A stretch of DNA of 53,140 nucleotides from an uncultured Prevotella sp. GTDB lineage: Bacteria > Bacteroidota > Bacteroidia > Bacteroidales > Bacteroidaceae. Within the stretch, counting starts at the first letter, position 1. Each line of letters starts with the position of its first letter. This document shows positions 33,153 through 41,019 of the stretch, one piece after another. The DNA lies in the NCBI GenBank assembly GCA_945830345.1, contig CALZYS010000003.1, forward strand, positions 1 to 53,140. The letters run 5' to 3'. The position numbers and the translations under genes are program-made. The notes under the pieces are model-generated. The model was not told the origin of the DNA, did no database searches, and worked only from the letters and a program-made list of their open reading frames with translations.

Positions 33153-36100
33153 TTAGAATGAAATCTTGATGCTGTTCTTTCCTGAGCGCACGATATATGT
33201 GCCAGCGCCAAGGCCTCTGCTCTTGAGGTCATTCCTCAACGAAGAGACTGTAGTGTTGATTCCATCAAGAACCTTGATTCCTGAGATGGTATATACATCA
33301 GCACTGAACTCGGTGTCGGCATCAATACCCTTAATGCCAGTAGAGCTTCCAACCTTGATTACACCCTGAGTAAGCAGCGCGGATGTGTCCCATGTCAATC
33401 CCTCGGGAAGCTCCTGAAGGTCGAAGGTGGGAGTTCCGCTTATAGCGCCCTCACAATCGAGCACTCTTACATAGTCGCCTTCTGCCGGAGTCCATGTTGT
33501 GCCGTATGTCACGTGGATAGTACCATTGAGAGTGGCGTCTCCTCCAACTTTCAGGAATGCCCATGCCTCTGACTTTGCTCCTGTGATGGAGTTCACGGAG
33601 ATGGAGTCGGTCTTGGTCTTGTTCACGTAGATATGCGAACCAGCCTCTGCATTGAGATTTCTCTCAATCTCAATGATGCCTGTGTTCTTGGTCTGAGATG
33701 TCGGGACATTTGTTCCCGGACGGAGGCTACCGCCATTTAGAAGGTTGATACCGTATGAATATCCCAAACCACGGAGTTCACCATTGTCCTGTACATACAA
33801 TATTGTAGGTGAAGTCATTGATGAAGTGGCAGCCTTATTGTTCAGTTTGACCGCTCCGTCGATAATCTTCAGCGACTTGGCATTGGCGAGTACATTCTCG
33901 CTTGAGATTGTCCATACTCCCGTACCGTTCTTTACAACATAGCTGCCGTTGATACTTCCCGAGAAGGTGAAGTTGGTGTTGTTGCCACCTATGGTAAGAG
34001 TGTTTGTTGCCGAACCGTAATAACCTCCATTGCTGATGTATCCAGATCCGGTGAGTGCTCCAATAGCAAAGCTCTTTCCGCTTGTGTTAAACGGTGTGGC
34101 CTCTGTGAATGCTGCGTCAACATTGAGCGTTGCGAGAGGAATACCGTATGTGTTGTTGAAGTCGAATACGGGTTCGTAGGCATTCTTCGGTCCGCGCTTT
34201 GCGTTGATTGTACCCGCAAACTCGCTCCAGTTGCCCTTAAACGGACAGCGCACCCATGTGGCATAGATGTCGATGGTACCCTCACCGGTTAGCTTACCCG
34301 TATAGTCGCATCGGCCGTCAGGATACCATATACCGGTCTTTCCCTTTGGCACTACAATGTTCACATTGTCTGAATTTGAGCTATATATACTGTTGTCAGC
34401 CTGCAGTGTCACCTTGCTTCCGTTGAGCACCACGGTCTTTCCTGTGAAGTGTGCATCCTGGAAGTCATACACTTTTCCACCATCAATATAAAGAGTGTCA
34501 TAGTCTGCTGTACAATTCAGTTGCAAAGTTCCTGTTCCTGCCTTGTGCAAGTTGCGGCTCTTGCCACTGTTAGCCTTCTTTATGCCGCCATTGAGAATCA
34601 GTGTGCCAGTGGTATTTATCGTACCGCCGTTTTCCTCTATGACTATTGGGTGTGAGGCAGTCATTGACGTTGCAGTCTTCAGAGTTCCGTTGTTTCTCAG
34701 AGTAATACTATTGTTTGCATCTCCGAGCGAACCGTATTGTGCTCCATCGGTGTTGGCGAGTGACGACGGAGTGAGAATACCTCTGCTTATGTATGTTCCA
34801 CCATTATATTTGTTCACATTCTTGATGTTTACAGTGCCCTTACCTTCCACTGAAAGAATTGCTTCGCCTTCAATGGCTCCATCACCCGACAGGTTATATG
34901 TCTTGGTGTCGTTCTTGAAGATGATGTTTCCAGGTGTGACATTCTCTGCAATGGTGATAGTGGTATTGACAGCACTGTCATCAAATGTGACCTCGTCGCC
35001 AGTGACGAAAGTCTTGTCAGAAGAGGAGAAGTTCTCCGAGTTCATCAGATCCCAAATTCCGTCCTTTTCTCCTGTCCAGATGACGCTTTCGCTTCCACGT
35101 CCGTCGAAGATAGAAAGGCTAATCTTGCCGTCGGCGTATGCAATCTCGTATTTCTTTCCGCCAAGTCCTTCTATGGTGATGTCGGAGAGATTGCCGTTCA
35201 ATTCACTTGTTTCAACGAGTGTGTATGTTCCTGCTGCTGGTTGTGATGTGAACACAAACACGGGAGCACTGTATTCCGGACCGTTCTTCCAGTCTTTCTT
35301 CTCAATACTCATCTTTGTAGCCGAAATCTTGTCGATTTCATTGCCATTTACATCGAACATCACACGTGCACCAAAGCCAAGCTCAAGTGACGATGTGGTT
35401 AGAGCACCCACATTGTTATTTCCTCCAGGACGAATCTCCGAACCATAGTCAGCCTTGATTCCGCCCTTGAAGTTACCACCGTCAGAGCTGAGGACGGCAA
35501 AGCGGTTGAGCCATACGGGGCTGCTCTCCATAGTGCCGTCAAACTGCAGTGTTCCTGCCCATACGTCGGTGCTTCCAGTGTAAGTCTCTGTCACGTTAGG
35601 CAGAACAAGTGTTCCGTCTCCCTGCTTCACAAGTCTCATAGCTCCGGCGAAAGCTCCGCCAGTGAGTGTATGTGTATAATATGTGTATTTTATCTCCGTG
35701 TCCTTAGTGGTACACTCGCTTGGGGCAGTTCCCTGCACCCATGACGGGGCATTGTCGGTAAAGATTGCAGGTGAAGCTCCTTCTGCCACAGCTATAGAGG
35801 CATCACCGTCAACATCGAGTAATGCATGCTTTCCGTTGAGAGAAGCATCGATGGATGATGACACAATCTCACGTCCCGTAGTTGTGAGTGGTGGCGGAGC
35901 GATTGTTATGCCTTCCAGTTCGCCGAGGAAGTATGAAGCGTGAGGCGGCTGGTTATATCCGCAAGGCTGCCATACCATAGCGTTGCGATATTGATGGTCG
36001 TACCATAACGAGTAGTTACGCCACTCCGTCGGGGTGGTTGTCGTATATATCCTTATATTATTATCTGCAGTGCGCTCGATTACCTCCTCACGCCAATCAC

Positions 36101-37751
36101 CGAAGATGTCACCCTGATAGCAAGGAGTGGCTTTGGTACTGTTGTTGGAATATGCGCCCGAGAAAGTGGCGAGAGTGCCAACACCTGGCTTTGACACAGT
36201 GATATTGTCGAAACATTCCTCCTGAAGGTCGCCATCCCAATAGATACGGAAATTCATTCCGAGACCATTGGTGTTCACTGTCACATGGTCATTTACCACT
36301 GTTGAGATTGGAGTATCATGAGCACCATTGCCTATGGAACCGGGGATGGTGTTATAGAAATTACCTGCGAGGGCACGTCCGGCATCGTTGGTGTCGGTCA
36401 TACGATAGTATATTTTGCTTGTTGTGGCATCGCGGTAGTTGTTTGCGGGATTGTCCTCGTTGCAGGCAAACACTTCCTGACCATGGGCGTATGGGTTGAG
36501 GTCGCCCACGTGGTGTGCATCGCCATGTCCGAGACCAGTGGTGGATAGTCCCTTTCCATTGTCGTCAATCACCATCGAACCCCATACTATCTCGTCCTTG
36601 CCGTCCCAATCCACGTCGGCAATGGAGTAGTTGTGATAACCCTGACCATACCAAGGCGAACCTGCTTGGTTGTTAGTCCATTGCCATCTCACGTTTAATG
36701 CATGTGATGCAGGGTCAACATCGTATGCTATGAACTTGTGTCTTGTATAAATACCTCGTCCTATGAACATGCTTGGACGCTTGCCGTCGAGATATGGCGC
36801 ACCGAAGAAGTGCTTGTTAGAGCGGTGTCCATAACCGTCGCCCCAAGCTGCCTTGAGGTCTGTTTCTCCAGCCTCAAGTCTTTTCAGAGGATATTCGATG
36901 CACTGGTATGGCTTACCAGTTGCACCCTCACAGTAGAAGAGGAACTCGTTGCCATAGTATGTAAACCATTCCACTGAGCTTGAACCCTTGGGAATGCGGT
37001 AGTTCGTCCACGATGTTCCATTCTTGCCGTCGGCACCGATGGTGTATGTTGTTCCGTCAGCCAAATGCACTGCGGCACCTTCCACGAGGCGCATCACCAC
37101 CTCTGCCTTTCCGTCCATGTCCCAGTCATATCCCACGATATTCTGTTCATTGTTCTGGAAGTCTCCCATGTTAGGACCGCAGTTCACCCACCACAACACA
37201 GTGCCGTCCTGCTTCAGACATGCAAGCATGGCATATTCCTTAGTCTCTACCCCATTGATGCTTGGACCGTTCTTGGGATAGAGCTGTTCACCCTCCTCCT
37301 TGTTGTCGAATTTCAGCAGTATCTCCACCTCGCCGTCACCGTCGACGTCGGCGCAGCAGGCGTCGTTCGGTATATAAGTTGACTTTAGTGAAGCATCGTG
37401 CTTGATCGTTATCGACTTGTAGTTATTGGCAAGCACAGTAGCAGCCTTTGATGCCTCCTTTTCGACTCCGTTCACAACAGCTTTAACAGTGTAAGTAGAG
37501 CTTTGCGAGCCAGATGCGTCAGTAAAGTTTGAGACGTTGAGCGGTTCGGAGTTCACCTTTGTTCCGTTGCGATAGAGATTATACTTTACGTCATAATACT
37601 CATCTGCCTGAATACGCCACGAGCAATACACTCCGCCCGTAGTCTGGACTGCCACAAGTCCGCGGTCGAGCCTGTCCATAACTCTCTGTGCCATGACTCC
37701 TGTGAATGAAGTCAGTGTGGCAAATGCAAGTGCGATAATTTTTTTGTTCAT
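33153..37751 (-). CDS. PL11-type rhamnogalacturonan lyase with long beta-strand-repeat extension and sorting-like C-terminal tail
   Basis: PL11 N-terminus (MDRLDRGLVAVQTTGGVYCSWRIQADEYYDVKYNLYRNG; DVDGDGEVEIL; DWDMDGKAEVV; DIFGDWREEVIERT). Residues ~650-1450 are G/N/T-rich autotransporter-type beta-strand repeats (GDGTLVLPNVTETYTGSTDVWAGTLQFDG; GKGTVNIKNVNKYNGGTYISRGIL). Tail VYTISGIKVLDG...LGAGTYIVRSGKNSIKISF. Confidence 0.85.
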   Translation of the reverse strand: MNKKIIALAFATLTSFTGVMAQRVMDRLDRGLVAVQTTGGVYCSWRIQADEYYDVKYNLYRNGTKVNSEPLNVSNFTDASGSQSSTYTVKAVVNGVEKEASKAATVLANNYKSITIKHDASLKSTYIPNDACCADVDGDGEVEILLKFDNKEEGEQLYPKNGPSINGVETKEYAMLACLKQDGTVLWWVNCGPNMGDFQNNEQNIVGYDWDMDGKAEVVMRLVEGAAVHLADGTTYTIGADGKNGTSWTNYRIPKGSSSVEWFTYYGNEFLFYCEGATGKPYQCIEYPLKRLEAGETDLKAAWGDGYGHRSNKHFFGAPYLDGKRPSMFIGRGIYTRHKFIAYDVDPASHALNVRWQWTNNQAGSPWYGQGYHNYSIADVDWDGKDEIVWGSMVIDDNGKGLSTTGLGHGDAHHVGDLNPYAHGQEVFACNEDNPANNYRDATTSKIYYRMTDTNDAGRALAGNFYNTIPGSIGNGAHDTPISTVVNDHVTVNTNGLGMNFRIYWDGDLQEECFDNITVSKPGVGTLATFSGAYSNNSTKATPCYQGDIFGDWREEVIERTADNNIRIYTTTTPTEWRNYSLWYDHQYRNAMVWQPCGYNQPPHASYFLGELEGITIAPPPLTTTGREIVSSSIDASLNGKHALLDVDGDASIAVAEGASPAIFTDNAPSWVQGTAPSECTTKDTEIKYTYYTHTLTGGAFAGAMRLVKQGDGTLVLPNVTETYTGSTDVWAGTLQFDGTMESSPVWLNRFAVLSSDGGNFKGGIKADYGSEIRPGGNNNVGALTTSSLELGFGARVMFDVNGNEIDKISATKMSIEKKDWKNGPEYSAPVFVFTSQPAAGTYTLVETSELNGNLSDITIEGLGGKKYEIAYADGKISLSIFDGRGSESVIWTGEKDGIWDLMNSENFSSSDKTFVTGDEVTFDDSAVNTTITIAENVTPGNIIFKNDTKTYNLSGDGAIEGEAILSVEGKGTVNIKNVNKYNGGTYISRGILTPSSLANTDGAQYGSLGDANNSITLRNNGTLKTATSMTASHPIVIEENGGTINTTGTLILNGGIKKANSGKSRNLHKAGTGTLQLNCTADYDTLYIDGGKVYDFQDAHFTGKTVVLNGSKVTLQADNSIYSSNSDNVNIVVPKGKTGIWYPDGRCDYTGKLTGEGTIDIYATWVRCPFKGNWSEFAGTINAKRGPKNAYEPVFDFNNTYGIPLATLNVDAAFTEATPFNTSGKSFAIGALTGSGYISNGGYYGSATNTLTIGGNNTNFTFSGSINGSYVVKNGTGVWTISSENVLANAKSLKIIDGAVKLNNKAATSSMTSPTILYVQDNGELRGLGYSYGINLLNGGSLRPGTNVPTSQTKNTGIIEIERNLNAEAGSHIYVNKTKTDSISVNSITGAKSEAWAFLKVGGDATLNGTIHVTYGTTWTPAEGDYVRVLDCEGAISGTPTFDLQELPEGLTWDTSALLTQGVIKVGSSTGIKGIDADTEFSADVYTISGIKVLDGINTTVSSLRNDLKSRGLGAGTYIVRSGKNSIKISF

Positions 37752-37791
37752 ATACAGAATTATTTAGGTATTTTATTTCTTTTTTTGGGTG

Positions 37792-37868: not shown

Positions 37869-38036
37869 ATGCCCTATTCACTTGCTAAGTGAATGCCCTA
37901 TTCAGTTGACGAGTGAATGCCCTATTCAGTTGACAAGTGAATGCCCTATTCAGTTGACAAGTGAATGCCCTATCGTAATAACATAAGGATGCCCTATCGT
38001 AATAACATAAGGATGCCCTATCGTAATAACATAAAG
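37869..38036 (+). repeat. Tandem array of seven 24-bp units, each beginning ATGCCCTAT
   Basis: Units at 37869, 37893, 37917, 37941 (ATGCCCTATTCA...TGA; 7-aa micro-ORFs) and 37965, 37989, 38013 (ATGCCCTATCGTAATAACATA(A)(G/A)G, open into one ORF to 38159). Confidence 0.95.
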
Positions 38037-38078
38037 ATAGCAATTACTCAAATACTTGATGTATATACATCACTATTT

Positions 38079-38174
38079 CGCCGATATAGGGTCTTACCTC
38101 GTGTAAGACCGCAACCCTATTTGTGGTGGTTTTGCGGAGGACGGTCTTACACGAGGTAAGACCCTACAACGGCG
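38079..38174. repeat. Nested inverted-repeat element
   Basis: Perfect 24-bp inverted arms AGGGTCTTACCTCGTGTAAGACCG (38088-38111) and CGGTCTTACACGAGGTAAGACCCT (38142-38165); outer CGCCG/CGGCG (38079-38083/38170-38174); each arm is itself GGTCTTAC-N5-GTAAGACC. Confidence 0.93.
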
Positions 38175-38209
38175 GAAACTCGGCTAATTATACTTGCGAA
38201 AGTTGAGTT

Positions 38210-38338
38210 AATGACCAAACTTTTTCTGCAAATTCTACTAAAAGCATATATAAATTAGATAAAATAACGACCGGGGCTGTCGCTTTTGTTGCGAAGCCCT
38301 GGTCGAGAGAATATAGAATCTTATTGTATATCTGAAAT
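38210..38338 (-). repeat. Direct repeat copy 1 (terminator module), follows the AbiE-like relic
   Basis: aatgaccaaactttttctgcaaattctactaaaagcatatataaattagataaaataacgaccggggctgtcgcttttgttgcgaagccctggtcg...; near-identical to 38722-38847. Confidence 0.92.
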
Positions 38339-38721: not shown

Positions 38722-38847
38722 AATGACCAAACTTTTTCAGCAAATTCTACTAAAAGCATATATAAATTGGATAAAAAAACGACCGGGGCTGTCGCTTTTG
38801 TTGCGAAGCCCCGGTCGGGAATTGAATATAGTATCTAATGTATGAAA
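38722..38847 (-). terminator. Direct repeat copy 2 with GC hairpin terminator at the 3' end of the SusCD operon
   Basis: GACCGGGGCT-gtcgcttttgttgcga-AGCCCCGGTC hairpin directly after the stop codon of 38848..41019 (-); same module as 38210-38338, offset 512 bp. Confidence 0.8.
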
Positions 38848-41019
38848 TTACTTCATCTGTGCACCAGATACAGAGAAGGTCTTGTCACCCTTAACGATAA
38901 CGATACCGTTGTCGGTGATCACTTTTCTGATGGCAGGAGCAATCTCCTTGGCAGCTGTTGCAGAAGAGATGCCAGTGCCAGGGTTGAAGCCCTTGTAAGT
39001 CATAACCTTAACTGTGCTGATTGCAGTGTCGTAACGATAGAATTTGAATGTCTCACCAGCTACAACAACTTCTGAAGAGGTGCAGTCACCCTTGTCAGGA
39101 CGGTTGTAACCACCAGTCTTGTTAACGATGAAGAAGTTTGGCTTGCTTGCATCGTCAGATGTGTACTTAGGATCGAGGTGCATCTTCAGATAACCATCGC
39201 CGTCAACAGCGCAAACGCCTTCAACCTTAGTGTTAACATCATAATATACCAATCCCTCGAATGGGAATAATGACCAAGCATAGTGGCCGTTGAATACCTT
39301 ATAGAGAGCAGTGTTCTCCTCAGACGGGATAAGCGGGAGGGCGCAAGTTGTTACATCATCAGGACAGAGTACATTCCACTTGGCATTTGCTGTACCGCAA
39401 TCTGTATCAGCGAACAGAGCGTGACCTTCCTTAACCCAAACGTAAGAGTCAGCATTGTCAGCATTGTAAACCTCTTGTGATCCGTCAGCTTTGTAACCAC
39501 GCTTCTCGCTTGACATGATGCGATCCCAGTGTGACTTACCAGCTGCATCAACACACTCTACTACGTTCCAACCATCAAGACCTGCGTTGATTTCCTCAGC
39601 GGTCTTAACATAGTTCTTAACTTCAGCAGTTTCATACTCTGCATTGTTCTGGATTGTGACAACATCAGAAGGAGAATACCAGGGATCTGGGTGCTTGGCA
39701 TCCAAAGAGTAAAGTTCGAGAGTTCCAGGCTCTGTAAATGTTACTTTCTTACCAGAAAGGTCAGTACCCTCATCGATAATAGAACCTGAGGCGTTCTTCA
39801 AAACATAGTGGATAGAAACCTCTGGCTTAAGTAGGGTTTCTGAGTTGTCAACGGTGAGAGTGTATTCCTTGCCATAACCCTCTTCCACGTTTGTAATTGT
39901 AGCTACAGGAGTAGGCATAACAACTTCAACACATTCAACTGCAGTTACAGACTCATCAGAAATGTTTGATTCATCATCTGCAAGTGTTGTCCATACTCTG
40001 AGGTTACCAGACTCTGTACAATAGATAATCTTGCTTCCAAAGTAATCCTGTTCATTAGGCTCGAAATCGCGGGTGTCATTAGCTGTCCAGTATTCAGCTG
40101 TGTATTCCTCGCCGTTAGCGTAAGACTCGCCGTTTACGTAATCGTAAGCATCACCAAGCTGTACCCAGTGGAGCACTTCGCCTTCAGCAAAGTTTACATA
40201 GTATGCACGCTGTGTACCGATAACTGCCAATGGGTCAACAGAAGGAGTACCTGCGAATGGACCTTCTACCGCAGTTGAAAGACCAATGTTGGAGAGTTGG
40301 TGAACTGATGTTCCGTTCATTGAGAAAACAAAGATACCAGCACGGTCCTCTTCGCAAACATAGTTGTGAACACCAGTTGCGAGTACATTGTCTTCCTCGT
40401 CTGCAATGGTGTAAGTGGCGGTCTTGTTGACTACGTTAATCACACAAGCAAACTTGTAGGTCTTTTGGCTCTGGAGAACGAGAGTTTCCTCGGTTGTCTG
40501 AGTCCAATCATTATTGGCTGTAGGATTCTCGTTAATCCAAATAGTAAATTCGCCATTGGCAGCTGTAGGAGCTACACCTACTCTCCAGCGGAAGAAGTAG
40601 TCCTCGCCCTCAGCACTGTTAAACCAACGATTGTTGTGTGTAGAAACACGTTTGTCGCTTGAAGTACAAGCACCAACTGGCAGAAGCACGAACTCCATAT
40701 CAGCACGAGCAGCCATGCTCGACATATTCAAGTTCATTGTGAACTTGTATTCGTTGTTAGGCAGAGTGCTAAGATCCTGCATCTTTGTCCACGCATCCTC
40801 ATTCCAAAAATAGTTGAGCATACGTCCACCGTTCTTTTTGTTGTAAGCCTGAAGGTAGTCCTTACCAGGAGTTCCTACGAAGTTGCCTGCGTCCTGGATA
40901 ACCCAGCCGTCAGCCATCTTGTCAGTTGGAATGGAGAAGAAGAACTTGTCCATCAACTGTGCTTTTGCCATCGTGCAACAGATGAGCATAAGCAATGAAA
41001 TTAATGTAAACTTTTTCAT
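38848..41019 (-). CDS. Secreted protein of unknown function in SusE/SGBP position
   Basis: 723 aa, signal peptide without a clear lipobox (LISLLMLICCTMAKAQ), beta-rich, tail GISSATAAKEIAPAIRKVITDNGIVIVKGDKTFSVSGAQMK; last gene of the SusCD operon. Confidence 0.7.
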   Translation of the reverse strand: MKKFTLISLLMLICCTMAKAQLMDKFFFSIPTDKMADGWVIQDAGNFVGTPGKDYLQAYNKKNGGRMLNYFWNEDAWTKMQDLSTLPNNEYKFTMNLNMSSMAARADMEFVLLPVGACTSSDKRVSTHNNRWFNSAEGEDYFFRWRVGVAPTAANGEFTIWINENPTANNDWTQTTEETLVLQSQKTYKFACVINVVNKTATYTIADEEDNVLATGVHNYVCEEDRAGIFVFSMNGTSVHQLSNIGLSTAVEGPFAGTPSVDPLAVIGTQRAYYVNFAEGEVLHWVQLGDAYDYVNGESYANGEEYTAEYWTANDTRDFEPNEQDYFGSKIIYCTESGNLRVWTTLADDESNISDESVTAVECVEVVMPTPVATITNVEEGYGKEYTLTVDNSETLLKPEVSIHYVLKNASGSIIDEGTDLSGKKVTFTEPGTLELYSLDAKHPDPWYSPSDVVTIQNNAEYETAEVKNYVKTAEEINAGLDGWNVVECVDAAGKSHWDRIMSSEKRGYKADGSQEVYNADNADSYVWVKEGHALFADTDCGTANAKWNVLCPDDVTTCALPLIPSEENTALYKVFNGHYAWSLFPFEGLVYYDVNTKVEGVCAVDGDGYLKMHLDPKYTSDDASKPNFFIVNKTGGYNRPDKGDCTSSEVVVAGETFKFYRYDTAISTVKVMTYKGFNPGTGISSATAAKEIAPAIRKVITDNGIVIVKGDKTFSVSGAQMK

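Follow-up and report, generated by a model that had tools for sequence, protein, structure and literature searches.

A probable inverted doublet of a GTAG-tagged REP family in the genome of an uncultured Prevotella sp.

The window analysed here is a stretch of 53,140 nucleotides from the genome of an uncultured Prevotella sp. (G000; other G numbers denote relatives and L numbers denote loci). It contains a nested palindrome in the 1.1 kb of intergenic DNA that separates two minus-strand genes (Table 1). Next to the palindrome the window carries 24-bp units in tandem, which exist in two versions, ATGCCCTATTCAGTTGACAAGTGA being one of them. Similar 24-bp arrays were seen elsewhere in this genome at G000:C77 (L063, 225-355) and G000:C2 (L252) and, in inverted orientation, in syntenic position in G079 (L250). 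The window also contains two near-identical segments of about 100 bp, about 510 bp apart, which flank an apparent remnant coding sequence; on the minus strand both comprise a hairpin (CGACCGGGGC...GCCCCGGTCG) with a T-rich run after it and resemble intrinsic terminators. In G129, the syntenic interval (L249, G129:C248) contains two copies of parts of the 5' half of the lyase gene (window 36900-37773), pointing to a local duplication.

Table 1. Position of the palindrome and of the neighbouring features in the window (units named according to the preferred reading)
Feature	Position	Strand	Remarks
Rhamnogalacturonan lyase	33153-37751	-	RGL11 and RGI_lyase domains
Tandem 24-bp units	37872-38037		
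Outer flank, unit 1	38076-38085	+	TTTCGCCGAT; matches the conserved CCG-n-T before GTAG; pairs with 38170-38178
Probable REP unit 1	38086-38112	+	tag ATAG 38086-38089 (degenerate GTAG); GGTCTTAC-CTCGT-GTAAGACC 38090-38110; tail GC
Doublet spacer	38113-38140	.	by eye like the doublet spacers of G086 (L222) and G129 (L217): GCAACC..ATTT..GCGG..TTTTGCGG
Probable REP unit 2, inverted	38141-38167	-	tag GTAG 38167-38164; GGTCTTAC-CTCGT-GTAAGACC 38163-38143; tail GT
Outer flank, unit 2	38168-38178	-	TTTCCGCCGTT on the minus strand
Segment of about 100 bp, first copy	38210-38308		
Segment of about 100 bp, second copy	38722-38820		
Unassigned 723-aa protein	38848-41019	-	

The two arms of the palindrome (38088-38111 and 38142-38165) are exact reverse complements, AGGGTCTTACCTCGTGTAAGACCG, and each of them contains a hairpin GGTCTTAC-N5-GTAAGACC, at 38090-38110 and 38143-38163, respectively. 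This geometry had been described in the initial annotation and holds, as does the outer pairing of CGCCG with CGGCG and of TTTC with GAAA in the window element. The 104-nt sequence is predicted to fold with -36.6 kcal/mol as DNA (z -11) and with -63.7 kcal/mol as RNA (z -9.7), and in neither case did a shuffled sequence fold as well. It had been proposed that the element could adopt either one long stem or two short hairpins; the long stem is the minimum-energy form, and one hairpin by itself is predicted to fold as well (-6.9 kcal/mol as DNA). The complementary loops that had been pointed out are indeed present but do not constitute a separate feature, because a hairpin and its inverted copy necessarily show them. 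An inverted pair of REPs directly gives rise to such a nested palindrome with complementary loops.

What is repeated is an asymmetric hairpin of about 27 nt, GTAG-GGTCTTAC-CTCGT-GTAAGACC-GC, with a perfect 8-bp stem and a loop of 5 nt. From 127 units of five genomes the consensus CCGnTGTAG-GGTCTTAC-CTCGT-GTAAGACC-GC was derived; in 111 of these units the GTAG tag immediately precedes the stem on its 5' side, and two units have the ATAG tag that the left unit of the window carries. The initial annotation had related ATAGGG (38086-38091) to the CCCTAT of the adjacent 24-bp array. The match exists, but ATAGGG is the tag GTAGGG with one G-to-A change, and the match to the array is most likely coincidental. 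An array without the repeat is present at G000:C2, and likewise in syntenic position in G079, and nearly all repeats are without an array; the second array, at G000:C77, adjoins a degenerate copy of the repeat.

The units occur as singles, as inverted pairs with the tags outside, and as arrays. Among 41 adjacent pairs, 32 are inverted with the tags outside, eight are tandem and one has the tags inside. The paired hairpins are 17-88 bp apart and their spacer sequences differ. Double-foot forms (GTAGGG...CCCTAC) are present at four G000 loci. Head-to-tail arrays repeating about every 55 bp were observed in G176 (L373, 18316-18866; L394, 10433-10602), and tandem arrays of about 55 bp also in G078. 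At a contig end of G129 (L217, G129:C129:8300-8916) the flanks of a REP pair form a long inverted repeat, which could be genuine or result from a fold-back in the assembly. Since solitary hairpins predominate in G000 (23 of 41 units) and pairs account for only part of the copies, the unit is the hairpin and not the pair of 24-bp arms, and it may not be the doublet that moves. In three genomes the units in clusters were not more alike than the solitary ones (permutation p 0.20, 0.80 and 0.81). As the doublets are not better conserved than the singlets, we classify the element as a REP doublet and not as a proven REPIN replicative unit.

The palindrome is not a single-copy sequence. A DNA search of the G000 assembly, which comprises 2.61 Mb in 250 contigs at about 80% completeness, produced 54 matches, many of them palindromes counted on both strands. 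The hairpin GGTCTTAC-N5-GTAAGACC is present in about 35 copies at about 30 places; by pattern search, 23 sites have an intact stem and 10 more have one mismatch. The reversed control pattern gave no match for the tagged motif in any genome which, together with the number of G000 copies, argues against a chance repeat. The location of the copies was compared with random positions in the same stretches, using open reading frames of at least 120 aa. Only 4 of 40 G000 copies are inside a reading frame as compared with 74% of the random positions, and for G176 the corresponding values are 0 of 44 and 43%. The copies adjoin unrelated genes. Plasmid and phage records gave no match.

In the sample of 398 genomes of the same genus nine carry the repeat (G000, G078, G079, G086, G129, G176, G346, G235 and G311), with 1 to about 70 matches per genome (about 80 hits in G078 by another pattern count); a shorter pattern adds one site in G026. 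The G000 copies are quite diverged, with a mean pairwise identity of about 0.78-0.83, and the G078 copies are 92-95% alike. For seven G000 loci we found relatives that possess the flanking genes and lack the element at the syntenic site: four relatives each for L060, L049, L061 and L058, two for L045, and one each for L039 and L057, the absence at L057 being less clear owing to other insertions at the site. The intergenic interval of the window is rearranged in G129, G079 and G078 and contains no copy there. Judged by eye, at least the G000 copies L037 and L041 have counterparts in the same surroundings in G129 (L227 and L228), therefore some insertions are older than the split of G000 and G129.

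The copies of one relative contain a compensatory stem change. The sampled copies of G176 read GTAGGGTCTTAG-N5-CTAAGACC, the apical pair being G-C instead of C-G, and this version was also found in single copies of G026 and G311. Among 48 distinct units the apical pair is C-G in 34, G-C in 12 and G-U in two. In this set 94.8% of the cells pair, and 17 cells are changed on both sides as compared with 4.8 in shuffles. The covariation score of 0.164 was reached in none of 500 shuffles (shuffled value 0.055) and was at most 0.053 when the units were slid. Most of the covariation stems from one pair and probably reflects a single change, that is, one strong compensation and a few isolated ones. Because one relative carries the apical C-G swapped to G-C, the comparison of the units supports the folded hairpin as the conserved feature. 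Such compensation fits selection on single-stranded DNA and on RNA equally well.

We conclude that the element is very probably (about 0.85) a doublet of a GTAG-tagged REP family, inverted with the tags outside, as in an HH dimer, BIME or REPIN. The repeat has the properties of a REP: it is a short dispersed palindrome with GTAG by the stem, is extragenic and shows complementary stem variants. The window copy has those of an HH dimer, namely two inverted REPs with the tags outside, a spacer, and one hairpin fold (z about -10). In 24 GTAG-tagged REP families (Di Nocera et al. 2013, PMC3733652) palindromes of 20-40 bp with stems of 6-9 bp have likewise been described, which are mostly intergenic and have compensating stem variants, a terminal GTAG (in about 90% of copies there), HH dimers as the commonest arrangement and spacers of 20-100 bp. 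In that study GTAG REPs were reported from Proteobacteria, Cyanobacteria, Chloroflexi and PVC, and Bacteroidetes with CGTC repeats only. The present family differs from those families in its 5-nt loop, in that its stem and loop sequence was encountered here in one genus only, and in that no REPtron was found. With the REPINs of Pseudomonas (Bertels and Rainey 2011, PMC3116915) it shares inverted doublets with a spacer, one long hairpin and extragenic dispersal; unlike in these, solitary units are as common or commoner in G000, and the doublets are not better conserved than the singlets. As in the E. coli REP/BIME, GTAG is located 5' of the hairpin and units are paired in inverted orientation, whereas the sequence is different and the perfect 8-bp stem has no bulge. 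For Bacteroidetes, the TnpA_REP subclasses 2.4 and 2.6 have been described; subclass 2.4 is abundant there, and GT[AG]G REPs, some of them double-foot, are assigned to it (Quentin et al. 2018, PMC6006769). The present repeat resembles the subclass 2.4 REPs in the phylum, the GTAG and the double-foot forms (here at four loci). A gene of this subclass was not identified in any carrier; the RAYT-like proteins encountered (345 and about 445 aa) have a long C-terminal extension and are not flanked by the present REPs.

By analogy with the TnpA_REP/RAYT enzymes, the copies would spread as single-stranded DNA: a Y1 HUH enzyme would recognise the hairpin, use GTAG as a guide and cleave next to the hairpin. 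In the REPs studied so far a Y1 HUH enzyme (RAYT/TnpA_REP) recognises the single-stranded hairpin, the need for GTAG varies, and cleavage takes place at CT or CA (PMC8266576). In the present family CT immediately precedes GTAG in only 41 of 107 units. We searched for the enzyme with PF01797 and two RAYT queries. The repeat was beside a Y1-transposase gene in none of the 91 fetched loci (347 kb), and none of these loci was a REPtron, in which the RAYT gene has the REP in question on its flanks. G079, which is 99% complete, contains repeats and gave no Y1 match with the queries used. In G078, also 99% complete, the sole RAYT-like gene is distant (33% identical, about 445 aa) and has no repeat beside it; relatives of this protein with 51-61% identity are present in G110 and G095, both of which lack the repeat, and it was rejected as the mobiliser. 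G000 itself has a 345-aa RAYT-like gene split by the assembly (C33:20633-21205 and C176:1-474; L054, L210). Its product shows a weak Y1_Tnp match, a PDHIHI motif and a long C-terminal part; relatives with 87-91% identity are present in G129, G122 and G086, and the closest named relatives are Prevotella and Prevotellaceae records. This gene was rejected as well, since it is flanked on both sides by hairpins of its own, CTCGACAGTTTTGCTGTCGAG, with 1-4 copies per genome, and its presence does not track that of the repeats: G122 has the gene and lacks the repeat. A search for a RAYT gene flanked by repeats in 1.18 Mb of G176, about a quarter of the genome, yielded one spurious hit.

A variant of the REP reading is that the mover is a non-RAYT enzyme, or that the RAYT has been lost and the copies are now relics. 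The unlinked Y1 loci, the situation in G079 and the divergence of the G000 copies are in line with this. On the other hand, the near identity of the G078 copies and the compensated version owned by G176 suggest recent spread, and the searches comprised three queries, with G000 being 80% complete; we regard this variant as possible, with the odds against it. In a doubtful extension, the GTAG REP family of Prevotellaceae would spread in genomes that contain no canonical RAYT. Movement would then depend on a HUH enzyme not recognised as such, on a distant RAYT working in trans or on an enzyme acquired by transfer, as carriers of 99% completeness hold many near-identical copies and no linked Y1 enzyme.

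It had also been proposed that the element is a candidate MITE. This stands insofar as it is a miniature dispersed palindromic element that is multi-copy, intergenic and present or absent in relatives. A classical MITE, the non-autonomous derivative of a DDE transposon with terminal inverted repeats of about 25 bp, a transposase in trans and target-site duplications, is nevertheless very improbable. The pairs with the tags outside do resemble terminal inverted repeats, the distribution is mobile-like with absence at syntenic sites, and the outer CCGC/GCGG is kept beyond GTAG in several genomes. Against this, the solitary units are not bounded by both inverted repeats, spacers vary in length and sequence, tandem and double-foot forms exist, and the unit itself is a hairpin with a GTAG tag; no target-site duplication was evident by eye, the flanks being too diverged to score one or to read the junctions to the base.

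A structured RNA acting in cis on the neighbouring mRNA as a switch, processing site or stabiliser, with the hairpin selected as RNA, is extremely unlikely: the predicted RNA fold is very stable on both strands, the stem shows the compensatory change and some G-U pairs, and the element is about 335 bp upstream of the rhamnogalacturonan lyase gene, but copies adjoin genes with no relation to one another, orthologous sites lack them, selection on single-stranded DNA explains the compensation equally well, the window gave no Rfam match, and the kissing-loop switch of the initial annotation is not supported, as the arm loops differ in 9 of 32 inverted pairs. The loops are equal in the other 23; from the loop frequencies about half of all pairs would have equal loops by chance, and the excess is attributable to shared descent.

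REPs are well studied in Proteobacteria, and the present repeat adds a new family to a known kind of repeat, the GTAG-tagged REPs. In the literature we found Bacteroidetes GTAG REPs only within a transposase survey (PMC6006769), and no publication joining Prevotella with REPs in a search mostly without subscription papers; priority is not claimed. By default, the doublet in the window is taken to be an insertion, selfish or neutral, into an intergenic island that undergoes rearrangement and is bordered by two genes of the same direction. The point of interest is the missing enzyme. If spread without a RAYT were true, the lineage-specific compensated stems would mark co-evolution with a partner enzyme. 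The patchy spread and the compensated sister version in one relative make the family a tractable case of a REP following its enzyme or surviving without it, and its copies can serve as markers for genome rearrangement in gut Prevotellaceae.
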